From a virus, in the IMG/VR virus record IMGVR_UViG_3300046337_000216, positions 1 to 33,734 of that record: a DNA stretch of 33,734 nucleotides. One strand, given 5' to 3'. A model generated the notes under the pieces. It worked only from the letters and a program-made list of their open reading frames with translations. It was not told the origin of the DNA and ran no database searches. A program made the position numbers and the translations under genes. Position 1 is the first letter of the stretch, and every line of letters starts with the position of its first letter. Below, piece after piece: positions 5,952-21,233 of the stretch.

Positions 5952-5975
5952 AATTTTAAAGAATATTGAAAATTA

Positions 5976-6007
5976 TTTTTTAGATTAAAAAATATGTAGT
6001 ACCTTAG
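5976..6007 (+). promoter_or_regulatory. early promoter 2
   Basis: TTTTTTAG (5976-5983), 16-base spacer, TACCTTAG (6000-6007), then GCAAAA. It lies 25 bases before the ATG of the HTH gene and probably starts the replication operon. Confidence 0.8.
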
Positions 6008-13578: not shown

Positions 13579-13754
13579 ACACGTTAGTAGCTAGCTCATA
13601 CTCTGAAGATAACACTTGGCATATTTTCAGAGAGGATGGAAAAGAAGTTAAATTCACAATAATAAATGGAATTATAAAATCTTACTATTATAGATTGACA
13701 GATCTTGAGCTAGATTATATTAAAAATAATTTAGTTCATGGAGATCGAAAGTGA
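13575..13754 (+). CDS. 59-codon ORF without a standard start codon
   Basis: The frame is open from 13572 to the TGA at 13752-13754 and encodes a protein-like sequence including SYSEDNTWHIFREDGKEVKF, NGIIKSYYYRL and TDLELDYIKNN. There is no ATG or GTG, and the only TTG (about 13695) is too late. The first plausible codon is ATA at 13575, overlapping the previous stop (ATAA). A -1 shift near the end of the upstream gene could also enter this frame, but no classic slippery heptamer is present. It overlaps the VRR-NUC start by 17 bases. It may be a gene with a rare start, a frameshift extension, or a decayed gene. Confidence 0.45.
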   Translation: MNTLVASSYSEDNTWHIFREDGKEVKFTIINGIIKSYYYRLTDLELDYIKNNLVHGDRK

Positions 13755-14022
13755 AAAATATCTTGAGAGAAAACTCTCAGAAGAAGTTAAAAAAATAGGC
13801 GGATGGTCAATCAAATTATTATCGACTCATTTGACTGGCTTACCTGACAGGCTTTGCTTGTTGCCTAAAGGCCGCCTTTTTTTTATCGAATTAAAAACAA
13901 CAAATCAGAAACCAAAGAAGATTCAAATTCTAATACATAAGAAACTCACAGATATAGGGTTTTTGGTATTAGTGATTGATACCTCAGAAAAAATAAAAGA
14001 ATTTATTAAAGATCATGAATAG
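13738..14022 (+). CDS. VRR-NUC domain nuclease
   Basis: This 94-residue stand-alone VRR-NUC protein belongs to the PD-(D/E)XK nuclease superfamily. It shows an N-terminal LERKLSEEVKKIGGWSIKL helix with the conserved Glu, GLPDRLCLLPKGRLFFIELKT with catalytic D (PDR), E and K (IELK), and a C-terminal helix typical of the family (IHKKLTDIGF). Phage members act on branched DNA such as Holliday-type junctions or flaps and usually lie beside an SNF2 helicase. Here an HNH gene separates them. The ATG lies inside the end of the preceding startless ORF. Confidence 0.9.
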   Translation: MEIESEKYLERKLSEEVKKIGGWSIKLLSTHLTGLPDRLCLLPKGRLFFIELKTTNQKPKKIQILIHKKLTDIGFLVLVIDTSEKIKEFIKDHE

Positions 14023-14087: not shown

Positions 14088-14600
14088 ATGCAAAAAACCT
14101 GTAAAAAATGTGGAAATGTCTTTAAAGTTAAACCTAGCAAAGCTGATAAAACCAACTTCTGTAATAAAATATGTGCTTCAAGAAAATTAAAAATACCTTG
14201 TAAAGAGTGTAGCCTATTAGTAGAACGGGTTCCAAGTCAAATATTAAAAGACGTTTATTGCGGAAAAGAGTGTGCTAAAATAGGTAAAAGTAAAAAATTT
14301 ACAGCCATGAATATTAAACTTAATCCAACTAGAATGACAGTAAAAACAAGAACTAAGATACGTAATGCTCATTTAGGAAAAGGAGAATGCAAAGGATATG
14401 AGAAGACTTTTGGCGTCCACACCCATAGAATAGTAGCTGCAGAAAAATTAGGTAGACCTTTAAAAAAGGGTGAAATTGTCCACCATATTGACGAAGTAAA
14501 AAGAAACAATAGCCCAGAAAATCTAGAGGTATTTGCCTCACAAGCTGAACATGCTAAGCTTCACTTTTTAAAAAATAATCCAAATGCTAAAAAAAGATAG
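14088..14600 (+). CDS. HNH endonuclease with zinc-finger N-terminus (homing type)
   Basis: The product has 170 residues from the ATG at 14088; an upstream TTG at 14073 lies in the promoter box and is rejected. The N-terminus has two Cys-pair zinc knuckles (CKKCGNVFK...FCNKICASRK and CKECS...YCGKECAKIG). A middle region with RTKIRNAHLGKG may bind DNA. The C-terminal HNH nuclease shows HTHRIVAAEKLGRPLKKGE and VHHIDEVKRNNSPENLEVF. Free-standing HNH genes in phages are usually selfish homing elements. It lies between VRR-NUC and SNF2 genes that are normally neighbours, and its 3' end overlaps the helicase start by 17 bases. Confidence 0.85.
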   Translation: MQKTCKKCGNVFKVKPSKADKTNFCNKICASRKLKIPCKECSLLVERVPSQILKDVYCGKECAKIGKSKKFTAMNIKLNPTRMTVKTRTKIRNAHLGKGECKGYEKTFGVHTHRIVAAEKLGRPLKKGEIVHHIDEVKRNNSPENLEVFASQAEHAKLHFLKNNPNAKKR

Positions 14601-15976
14601 TTTACATAATTATCAGCTTAACGCTATCAATCAAATTATATCCAGCCCCTATTCAGGATTGTTTCTTGATATGGGGTTGGGCTGAAGGCAAAACTGTTTC
14701 AACATTGACTGCTATAAATGAATTAATTTATGAGGAGCTTGATGTTTCTAAGGTTTTAATAATTGGCCCAAAACGTGTTGCCGAAAGTGTATGGACTGCT
14801 GAAGCTAAAAAATGGGATCACTTAAAACATTTGAAAATTGCTAAAGTTATTGGATCTGAAAAGCAACGTAAAGCAGCTTTAAGAGAAAAAGCAGATATTT
14901 ATATGATCGGCCGAGATAACATTGTTTGGCTATGTGGCCAATTCGGTGGATCAATGTTACCATTCGATATGCTCGTAATTGACGAAAGCAGTAGTTTTAA
15001 GTCGCCAAAATCATTACGCTTCAAAGCATTGAAATTAGCACAACCGTCATTTAAAAGAGTAGTTATACTTACTGGAACACCAGCGCCAAATGGATTGATT
15101 GATATTTGGAGCCAAGTCTACTTATTAGATCGCGGAAAAAGATTGGGTAAAACAATAACAGCTTACCGTGAAATCTATTTTAAGCCAGGCAAAAGGAATG
15201 GTGCTATTATTTACAATTATGATTTGCAGCAAGATGGTGAAAGTAGGATTCATGATAAAATTTCAGATATATGCATGAGCATGAAAGCAAAAGATTATCT
15301 AGACTTGCCAAAACGAATTGACAACTATATTGAGATCCAATTTCCAGCAGGTCTACAACAAAAATATGATGACTTTGAAAGGGATCAAGTTTTAGAAATG
15401 TTTTCAGATGCTGAAGATATTTCGGCAATAAATGCAGCAGCATTATCAAATAAGCTTTTACAGTTTGCAAATGGTGCCGTATATGATAACAAAAAGAACT
15501 ACCACATAATTCATGATCTAAAATTAGAAGCTGCTGAAGAAATAGTTGAAAATGCAAATGGGAAACCTGTTCTAATAGCTTATACTTATAAACACGATTT
15601 GGAACGACTTCTTGAGAAGTTAAAAAAATATAAACCAAAACAATTAAAAACTGATCAAGATATAAATGATTGGAATGCTGGCAAAATTCAAGTTATGATT
15701 ATGCATCCAGCTTCTGGTGGCCACGGTTTAAATTTACAAGCTGGCGGAAATATAATTGTTTGGTTTGGGCAAACATGGTCACTTGAGCTTTATATGCAAT
15801 TCAATGCTCGTCTAGATCGTCAAGGGCAAACTGAATCAGTTATTGTGAATCACTTAGTTGCAAGCAAAACAATTGATCAAGATGTTATAAAAGCTTTGGC
15901 AAATAAGAACACTAGACAAGAAGGATTAATGCAAGCTATCAAGTTAAAAATAGACAATTACAAAAAATTATTTTAA
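14584..15976 (+). CDS. SNF2-family helicase interrupted at Walker A (recoding or frameshift)
   Basis: The ATG at 14584 reads MLKKDSLHNYQLNAINQI and on to GLFLDMGLG, then TGA at 14683. The rest of the helicase continues in the +1 frame (from about 14681) to 15976. It contains motif II VIDESSSFKS, motif III LTGTPAPNGL, and motifs V-VI GGHGLNLQAGG and QFNARLDRQGQ. The junction reads GGG TTG GGC TGA A GGC AAA ACT. A hop from the first GGC to the second gives DMGLGKTVSTL, the exact family Walker A; a +1 shift at GGC gives DMGLGEGKT. Otherwise it is a pseudogene or sequencing error. With the join the protein has about 460 residues, normal for phage SNF2 helicases. A TTG restart at 14666 would lack the Q motif and is unlikely. 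Confidence 0.85.
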
Positions 15977-16047
15977 AAAATATTGAAAATAATTTTTTAG
16001 TTTAAAAATAAGTTGTATCTTAGCAAAACAATTAACAAGCAAAATTT
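15971..16047 (+). repeat. promoter-leader repeat, copy 1 (copy 2 at 21181-21257)
   Basis: These 77 bases differ from 21181-21257 at only four positions, all in the promoter spacer or -7 box. The 5' leader (GCAAAACAATTAACAAGCAAAATTT) is fully conserved; its core AATTAACAAGCAAAA also occurs at 8815-8829 before the polymerase gene. The conservation extends beyond the promoter boxes, so the leader itself may act in translation. Confidence 0.85.
15993..16023 (+). promoter_or_regulatory. promoter for the dCMP deaminase operon
   Basis: TTTTTTAG (15993-16000), 15-base spacer, TATCTTAG (16016-16023), then GCAAAACAATTAACAAGCAAAA. Promoter and leader are almost the same as at 21203-21257. Confidence 0.85.
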
Positions 16048-17188: not shown

Positions 17189-17938
17189 ATGGAATCACAA
17201 GTAATATTTGGAGAGTGTTTACAGGAGATGGCAAAATTGCCTAGCAAATCAATTGATATGATATTGTGCGACCTACCTTATGGAACTACTGCTTGTAAAT
17301 GGGATCAGATAATTCCATTTGATAAAATGTGGTCACAATACAATAGATTAATAAAAGACGGTGGAGCTATAGTTTTAACAGCTTGTCAGCCTTTCACTAC
17401 TGCTTTAGTAGCTAGCAATATTAAAAATTACAGGCATTCTTGGCAATGGATTAAAAATATGCCAACAGGTGCTTTTATGGCAAAATATATGCCTATGAAA
17501 AGCAACGAGGATGTCTTAGTGTTTGGAAATAGTAAAGTAAACTACTATCCAAAAATGGTAAAAAGAACAGAAGAAGAATATAAACTAGCTTTTAGAAAAA
17601 ACGACAGTAAAAGCTGGGGAAACAATATACAAGGTCAAACATCAAACATTATAAAAAGAAAATCAGCAGAAGAGCAGTGGTATAAAATGCCAACCAATAT
17701 ATTAAACTTTCCAAAGGAGTCAATAAGAGATGGATCTAAACATCCGACTCAAAAACCTGTTGCGCTCTTTCAATATTTAATAGAAACGTATACGCTGCCT
17801 GGTCAAATAGTTTTAGATAATTGTGCGGGGTCTGGAACAACGGCTATTGCTTGCATAACTACAAGCAGAAAATATATATTAATAGAGAACAATGAAGACT
17901 ATATAGATATGATTAACAAAAGATTAGAAATATTTTAA
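17189..17938 (+). CDS. DNA N6-adenine or N4-cytosine methyltransferase
   Basis: This 249-residue SAM-dependent DNA amino-methyltransferase starts at the ATG at 17189; an upstream TTG at 17162 would overlap the previous gene. Catalytic motif IV DLPYGTTACKWD (28-39, DPPY type) comes first and the SAM-binding motif LDNCAGSGTTAIA (about 207-219) near the end, which is the beta-class order. HPTQKPVALFQYLIETYT precedes motif I, as usual. It probably protects phage DNA from host restriction. No partner endonuclease is present, and the target cannot be read from sequence. Confidence 0.9.
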   Translation: MESQVIFGECLQEMAKLPSKSIDMILCDLPYGTTACKWDQIIPFDKMWSQYNRLIKDGGAIVLTACQPFTTALVASNIKNYRHSWQWIKNMPTGAFMAKYMPMKSNEDVLVFGNSKVNYYPKMVKRTEEEYKLAFRKNDSKSWGNNIQGQTSNIIKRKSAEEQWYKMPTNILNFPKESIRDGSKHPTQKPVALFQYLIETYTLPGQIVLDNCAGSGTTAIACITTSRKYILIENNEDYIDMINKRLEIF

Positions 17939-17967
17939 AAAATATTTTTAAAATAAGTTAAAAATAA

Positions 17968-17998
17968 TTTTTTAGTTTGAAATTAAGTAGTACATTAG
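17968..17998 (+). promoter_or_regulatory. promoter for the gene at 18030
   Basis: TTTTTTAG (17968-17975), 15-base spacer, TACATTAG (17991-17998), then GCAAAATAAATAATCATT. The architecture is the same as that of the other early promoters. Confidence 0.8.
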
Positions 17999-21165: not shown

Positions 21166-21202
21166 TTAAATGAAAATTATTTTTAAAAAATATTGAAAAT
21201 AA

Positions 21203-21233
21203 TTTTTTAGTTTAAGAAACAGTTGTATATTAG
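21203..21233 (+). promoter_or_regulatory. promoter of the distal early operon
   Basis: TTTTTTAG (21203-21210), 15-base spacer, TATATTAG (21226-21233). The surrounding 77 bases (21181-21257) repeat the promoter-leader at 15971-16047. It follows the terminator at 21135. Confidence 0.85.

Follow-up and report, generated by a model that had tools for sequence, protein, structure and literature searches.

A stop-led gap in the Walker A motif of phage SNF2-type helicases: probably a widespread family of short programmed translational bypasses linked to homing

The SNF2-type helicase gene of a 33,734-base virus record, a single contig that we refer to in its whole length as the window, is interrupted within the Walker A motif by seven nucleotides that begin with a stop codon. 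We propose, with a probability of roughly 0.78, that the helicase is made as one protein through a short programmed translational bypass, a reading drawn from comparison of sequences. A short insert at this exact codon boundary is present in at least 117 dereplicated SNF2-type helicases of phages and prophages, and together these genes probably make up a widely distributed family with short programmed bypasses of translation and a likely link to homing. As judged from its sequences, the family works like bypassing and is not a proven member of that class.

All features of the helicase region of the window described here lie on the + strand. The N-terminal reading frame of the helicase (14584 to 14682, 33 codons) runs from ATG 14584 through MLKKDSLHNYQLNAINQIISSPYSGLFLDMGLG, with DMGLG as its last residues, and is closed by TGA at 14683 to 14685. 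The stop is followed by A at 14686, GGC at 14687 to 14689 and AAA ACT at 14690 to 14695, which encode KT. The main part of the helicase (KTVSTL..., 14690 to 15976) is in frame +1 with respect to the N-terminal part and remains open until the stop at 15974 to 15976; it matches phrog_62 DNA helicase (4e-146) and contains SNF2-rel_dom (PF00176) together with a weak Helicase_C match. The TGA thus opens a 7-nt gap, TGAAGGC (14683 to 14689), removal of which yields DMGLGKTVSTL. The original prediction had described this order of DMGLG, TGA, A, a second GGC and KT in another frame, as well as the seven-base skip that restores DMGLGKTVSTL, and the window sequence confirms both. The proposed take-off codon is the Gly codon GGC at 14680 to 14682, a position held by GGT or GGC in 115 of the 117 interrupted relatives, and the proposed landing codon is the identical GGC at 14687 to 14689, where relatives have GGN or a near-Gly triplet. 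The insert of every interrupted relative is likewise led by a stop.

Upstream of the helicase lies a VRR-NUC-type endonuclease gene (ORF at 13738 to 14022; phrog_93 endonuclease, 1.2e-21), which is the usual direct upstream neighbor of the helicase in relatives; the same gene order is found in Croceibacter phage P2559Y. A free-standing HNH endonuclease gene (14088 to 14600; PF13392 HNH_3, 2.4e-12, and several HNH phrogs) stands between the two. It starts with ATG 14088, although TTG 14073 upstream also opens the same frame, and its 3′ end overlaps the helicase start by 17 nt. In an alignment with the intact locus L001, which is without this segment, the HNH gene is an insertion between the VRR-NUC-type and helicase genes. 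Elsewhere in the window, an intergenic AT-rich repeat of about 30 to 39 nt, 85 to 97% alike among copies, occurs at 5953–5983, 15962–16000, 17937–17975 and 21173–21210 and is possibly a shared promoter, and the ORF at 273–776 has a C-terminal (ET)n repeat run.

Among 80 homologues fetched with the downstream protein alone, most are uninterrupted and carry DMGLGKT or a close variant. Inserts at the same site were found in L026 (TAGCGCCCTGGT), L049 (TAAGGA), L061 (TGAGTTAGA) and L069 (TGAGGC), and no stop-free insertion at this site was seen among the homologues fetched in this way. Scanning viral contigs and bacterial genomes with sequence patterns brought the total to 169 interrupted loci, which dereplication reduced to 117. 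Most loci came from a pattern requiring the stop, K and T, and the database patterns were MGLG-type motifs; because such patterns bias the counts of stop, K and T, our tests rest on other positions or on pattern-free loci, and codons 3 and later after the break were used in place of the pattern-fixed K and T. The inserts are mostly 4 to 12 nt long, fall in all three frames, and begin with TGA, TAG or TAA (58, 44 and 9 of 111 interrupted genes, respectively). The pattern occurred exactly once in each of two genome assemblies of prophage hosts, with a reversed control giving 0. Three deposited phages, Javan422 (TGAGGGC), NatCom_38182 (TGAAAAGGC) and phi1605 (TAGGA), are interrupted and have been annotated with a truncated helicase. 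No published report of this interruption was found in the open-licence literature. The names Bacteroidota-type and Firmicutes-type used below are working names taken from the sequences and a few named hosts, not formal host assignments.

Several loci differ from the common arrangement. In L031 and L032, one extra T between GLG and KT creates a TAA (GGG TAA GAC), with a local fold z of about −3; the extra base may represent a hop of 1 nt or an error in the sequence. L219 and L712, both on the reverse strand, belong to another phage helicase subfamily (Y-D-MGLG / KTF-GSEKM) and carry the inserts TAGC and TGACGC; L219 also shows a helix of 12 bp and, at its start, the element GGAGGTGATGCC-ATG. 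Near position 3001 of L676, a typical intein C-terminal end (FIVTHN) directly precedes TLTTLTA, which suggests a putative intein in the same Walker A motif, that is, another mobile element at this site.

Coding is under strong purifying selection on either side of the break. In 55 independent pairs of interrupted genes, 19 of which differ in insert frame, dN/dS was 0.095 before the break, 0.070 over codons 3 to 12 after it, and 0.053 beyond. It is by selection, then, that coding is seen to resume 3′ of the gap in any frame. These values bear on the account that the helicase gene is dead or that the break is a sequencing or assembly error. The window is a single virus contig, as that account would have it, and the original prediction had allowed for a mutated or misread gene, a lone mutant among intact relatives. 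However, the same break recurs at the same boundary in more than 100 independent loci, including assemblies with named hosts and deposited phages, and the ratio stays between 0.05 and 0.1 on both sides. We consider a dead gene or an error very improbable, and for the family it is largely refuted.

Another account is a split gene, with the N-terminal peptide and the downstream part made separately and then assembled, like phage Aeh1 nrdA. Phage genes are known to be split by homing endonucleases (PMC2988022), the frame between the parts would then be irrelevant, and the window does have a KT-frame TTG at 14666. However, 97 of 132 interrupted genes contain no KT-frame ATG, GTG or TTG between the preceding stop and K, and the first downstream start codons are scattered in position. 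Even so, purifying selection acts on the codons that immediately follow the break. Selection after the stop, combined with the usual lack of a KT-frame start, indicates that the frame is usually entered by ribosomes coming from the N-terminal part. A conserved downstream start was not found in these genes, and separate initiation was rejected as a general account. A split gene seems to us improbable.

One could instead envision recoding specific to the frame of each gene, an ordinary +1 or −1 frameshift or stop readthrough as the case requires, which in the window would produce DMGLGEGKT. A stop codon in the A site stalls the ribosome and favors +1 shifts, as in prfB, and the window gap is +1. 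This is the shift that the original prediction had offered as an alternative, but one fixed +1 shift is at odds with insert lengths of 4, 5, 6, 7 nt and above. All three frames would be required to cover gaps from 4 to 12 nt, the frame flips repeatedly between relatives, and inserts of 6 nt would require TGA, TAA and TAG to be read through. Mapped onto a tree of 111 interrupted genes, the insert shows no fewer than 45 changes in length and 30 in stop identity, so that no single frameshift or readthrough event explains the inserts. Furthermore, frame-specific products would carry extra residues in the P-loop (GLGSKT, GLGDKT). A reassigned stop or alternative code was rejected, all three stops being in use. 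Frame-specific recoding is unlikely, although less so than a split gene.

Skipping the whole insert restores the exact Walker A motif in every insert class, whereas the other recodings add P-loop residues. In the bypass that we propose, ribosomes would translate to the Gly codon GGC at 14680 in the Walker A motif, bringing TGA into the A site. The peptidyl-tRNA-Gly would release, the mRNA would move by 7 nt, and the tRNA would re-pair at GGC 14687, from where decoding would restart at AAA to give the exact DMGLGKT. An RNA helix 5′ of the stop, either the hairpin of the window or the gene-start helix of the Firmicutes-type genes (see below), would be unwound on arrival of the ribosome; on re-forming at the mRNA exit, the helix might exert a pull that carries the mRNA forward, the role proposed for the 5′ stem-loop in T4 gene 60. 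We infer the hop, its efficiency and the pulling role of the helix. The candidate short bypass of the original prediction thereby gains support from the sequences of more than 100 helicases, from the use of all three frames and from selection on both sides of the stop.

The landing triplets fit this proposal unevenly. Where the stop leaves room, the triplet before AAR is mostly GGN. In the 4-nt inserts (TAGC, TGAC), in which a stop and GGN cannot coexist, it is AGC, GAC or GAT. The take-off and landing pair is GGC/GGC in the window, while in the family GGY is paired with GGN, AGY, GAC or others. Hence the matched Gly codons of the original prediction stand for the window and are not general, the 4-nt class having AGC or GAC. 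A presumed landing on AGC or GAC is a mismatch for tRNA-Gly and counts against bypassing. In part, the landing triplet could be the ancestral Gly codon.

Synonymous choice is frozen just before the stop. The Gly codon GGC is used in 89% (intact genes, 23%) and the Gly codon GGT in 79% (intact genes, 25%), and the Leu codon is TTA, TTG or CTC in 93% of interrupted genes; the codons after the insert are free in their synonymous choice. In the 55 interrupted pairs, pS was 0.24 for the three take-off codons compared with about 0.65 around them. The three frozen codons also make up the 3′ side of an RNA helix that shows covariation and that differs between the two types of gene.

In the window, a hairpin at 14641 to 14681, which the original prediction had overlooked together with the upstream HNH gene and the recombination evidence, has 15 pairs and a folding energy of −24.5 kcal/mol (z −3.5). 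Its outer stem consists of a 5′ arm at 14641 to 14649 (UCCAGCCCC) and a 3′ arm at 14673 to 14681 (GGGGUUGGG) that ends within the take-off codon, and it encloses an inner stem-loop at 14653 to 14669, in which 14653–14658 pairs with 14664–14669. The hairpin emerged from a pairing search over 300 nt on either side. Four interrupted Bacteroidota-type relatives have the same type of hairpin (z −4.0 to −5.2), and the intact L001 lacks it. Across these five sequences, the only ones from which the window-type hairpin is known, 93% of cells are paired, 6 of the 15 pairs have two-sided changes, and the covariation of 0.400 (0.179 when shuffled) was reached by 0 of 500 shuffles. A scan with GGGGTTRGGY for further window-type genes yielded the Firmicutes-like L708 and L712, from the other helicase subfamily, and no new Bacteroidota-type gene.

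Firmicutes-type genes have a second frozen stretch, GGAGGTGATGCC-NN-ATGAAGTTCATACC, at the gene start, which nearly all intact relatives are without. There AAGUUCAUN pairs with N′AUGGGCUU, and GCC pairs with the take-off GGU. In 98 sequences, 94% of cells are paired, as opposed to at most 47.5% when the strands are slid; two-sided changes occur at three pairs, and the end pair is found as A-U, C-G, G-C and U-A. Tree-aware covariation tests all pointed in the same direction, with a median p of 0.016 to 0.06 where sampling allows. Of the 117 interrupted genes, 94 share one register of the helix, whereas the registers of intact genes are scattered. Run unaided on the Firmicutes-type alignment, RNAalifold predicted only a 3-bp hairpin and not the long-range helix, which therefore rests on covariation and register; the folding energy of these genes is not unusual. 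In the window, a Firmicutes-type helix joining the gene start to Walker A paired no better than shuffled sequences did and was rejected. Two unlike RNA structures that end at the same codon point to one putative function.

Genes ending no more than 60 codons upstream of the helicase start and encoding an HNH motif accompany 19 of 104 interrupted and 1 of 62 intact helicases, an enrichment (p 0.0009) between groups that also differ in phylogeny. Most interrupted genes have no recognizable HNH gene alongside. As an exception to the association, the intact helicase of L079 is immediately preceded by an HNH gene. In L049, a DNA methyltransferase gene (2156–2881) takes the position that the HNH gene holds in the window and L061.

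On well-supported branches, the tree calls for 14 or more changes between the intact and interrupted states, and such changes go together with recombination at the break site. The interrupted L444, with an upstream HNH gene, and the intact L640 share 97% of the downstream protein and about 90% of the downstream DNA; their N-terminal segments are about 60% alike, and nothing recognizable is shared above. The pair L049/L041 shows the same drop in identity. In both pairs the breakpoints lie at Walker A; this evidence comes from relatives and is weaker for the window. For pairs with 80 to 90% downstream identity, the N-terminal part is 0.62 identical between interrupted and intact genes as compared with 0.78 to 0.79 between genes of like state. 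L411 and L652 differ by a replaced patch around the break site, and the intact helicase of L652 (near 3001) retains the Firmicutes-type start element and ATGGGCTTGGGA; as far as these sequences tell, local gene conversion seems to have switched the state of L652. Cutting at the Walker A site followed by co-conversion would leave just such an identity pattern.

The gap of T4 gene 60 has a protective role. By analogy with T4 gene 60 and mobA, we infer that the insert may have arisen, or may persist, by making the gene resistant to an HNH enzyme that targets the intact Walker A. We tentatively put forward, at somewhat less than an even chance for the whole of it, a mobile bypass module: the HNH enzyme would target the intact P-loop, the stop-led insert and the helix would immunize the gene, translation would erase the insert, any frame would be tolerated, and co-conversion would have spread the module over a hundred and more phages.

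The conserved RNA helix abutting the insert, and recombination that resembles intron homing, might also suit removal of the insert at the RNA level by a processing or editing step. On the other hand, the inserts are of 4 to 12 nt without a conserved interior, their first codon is a stop, which is a specifically translational feature, and we know of no RNA-excision system of this size. RNA-level removal is the most improbable of the explanations considered here.

In T4 gene 60, 50 nt are bypassed from a GGA-UAG take-off with the help of the nascent peptide and stem-loops, and the 5′ stem-loop folds behind the ribosome and promotes directional sliding (PMC11194080, PMC5009743); the gene of the HNH endonuclease MobA adjoins it (PMC2988022). 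The helicase family resembles gene 60 in having a Gly take-off codon with an immediate stop, a 5′ RNA helix and an HNH neighbor. It differs in that gene 60 is one gene with a 50-nt gap, whereas the helicase gaps are variable, short and spread over a large SNF2-type family, with landing codons that are often not identical to the take-off. The N-terminal peptide of the helicase is conserved, yet it is also part of the helicase fold. Other natural cases are few (PMC5009743), namely a likely short bypass in the terminase of Streptomyces phage Hau3 and the mitochondrial inserts of Magnusiomyces. The Hau3 terminase is likewise a phage gene with a short coding gap, but it is a different gene with UUA as the key codon and few cases. 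Magnusiomyces capitatus mitochondria also skip many short inserts in translation, but in 12 genes and seemingly independently of mRNA context (PMC5009743), whereas the helicases have one site and a specific RNA structure. With prfB the family shares the stop in the A site; prfB always shifts by +1 and has an internal Shine-Dalgarno sequence, whereas the helicases use all three frames.

To our knowledge, nearly all work on programmed bypassing has dealt with T4 gene 60, the sole phage gene for which it has been shown in detail. A natural family with many gap lengths and landing codons and with two RNA architectures would make the rules of bypassing comparative and testable. Current annotation would be missing the N-terminus and the P-loop of a common phage helicase, and the HNH link would generalize the case of gene 60 and mobA. 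If the mobile-module reading is true, programmed bypassing would be a common strategy.
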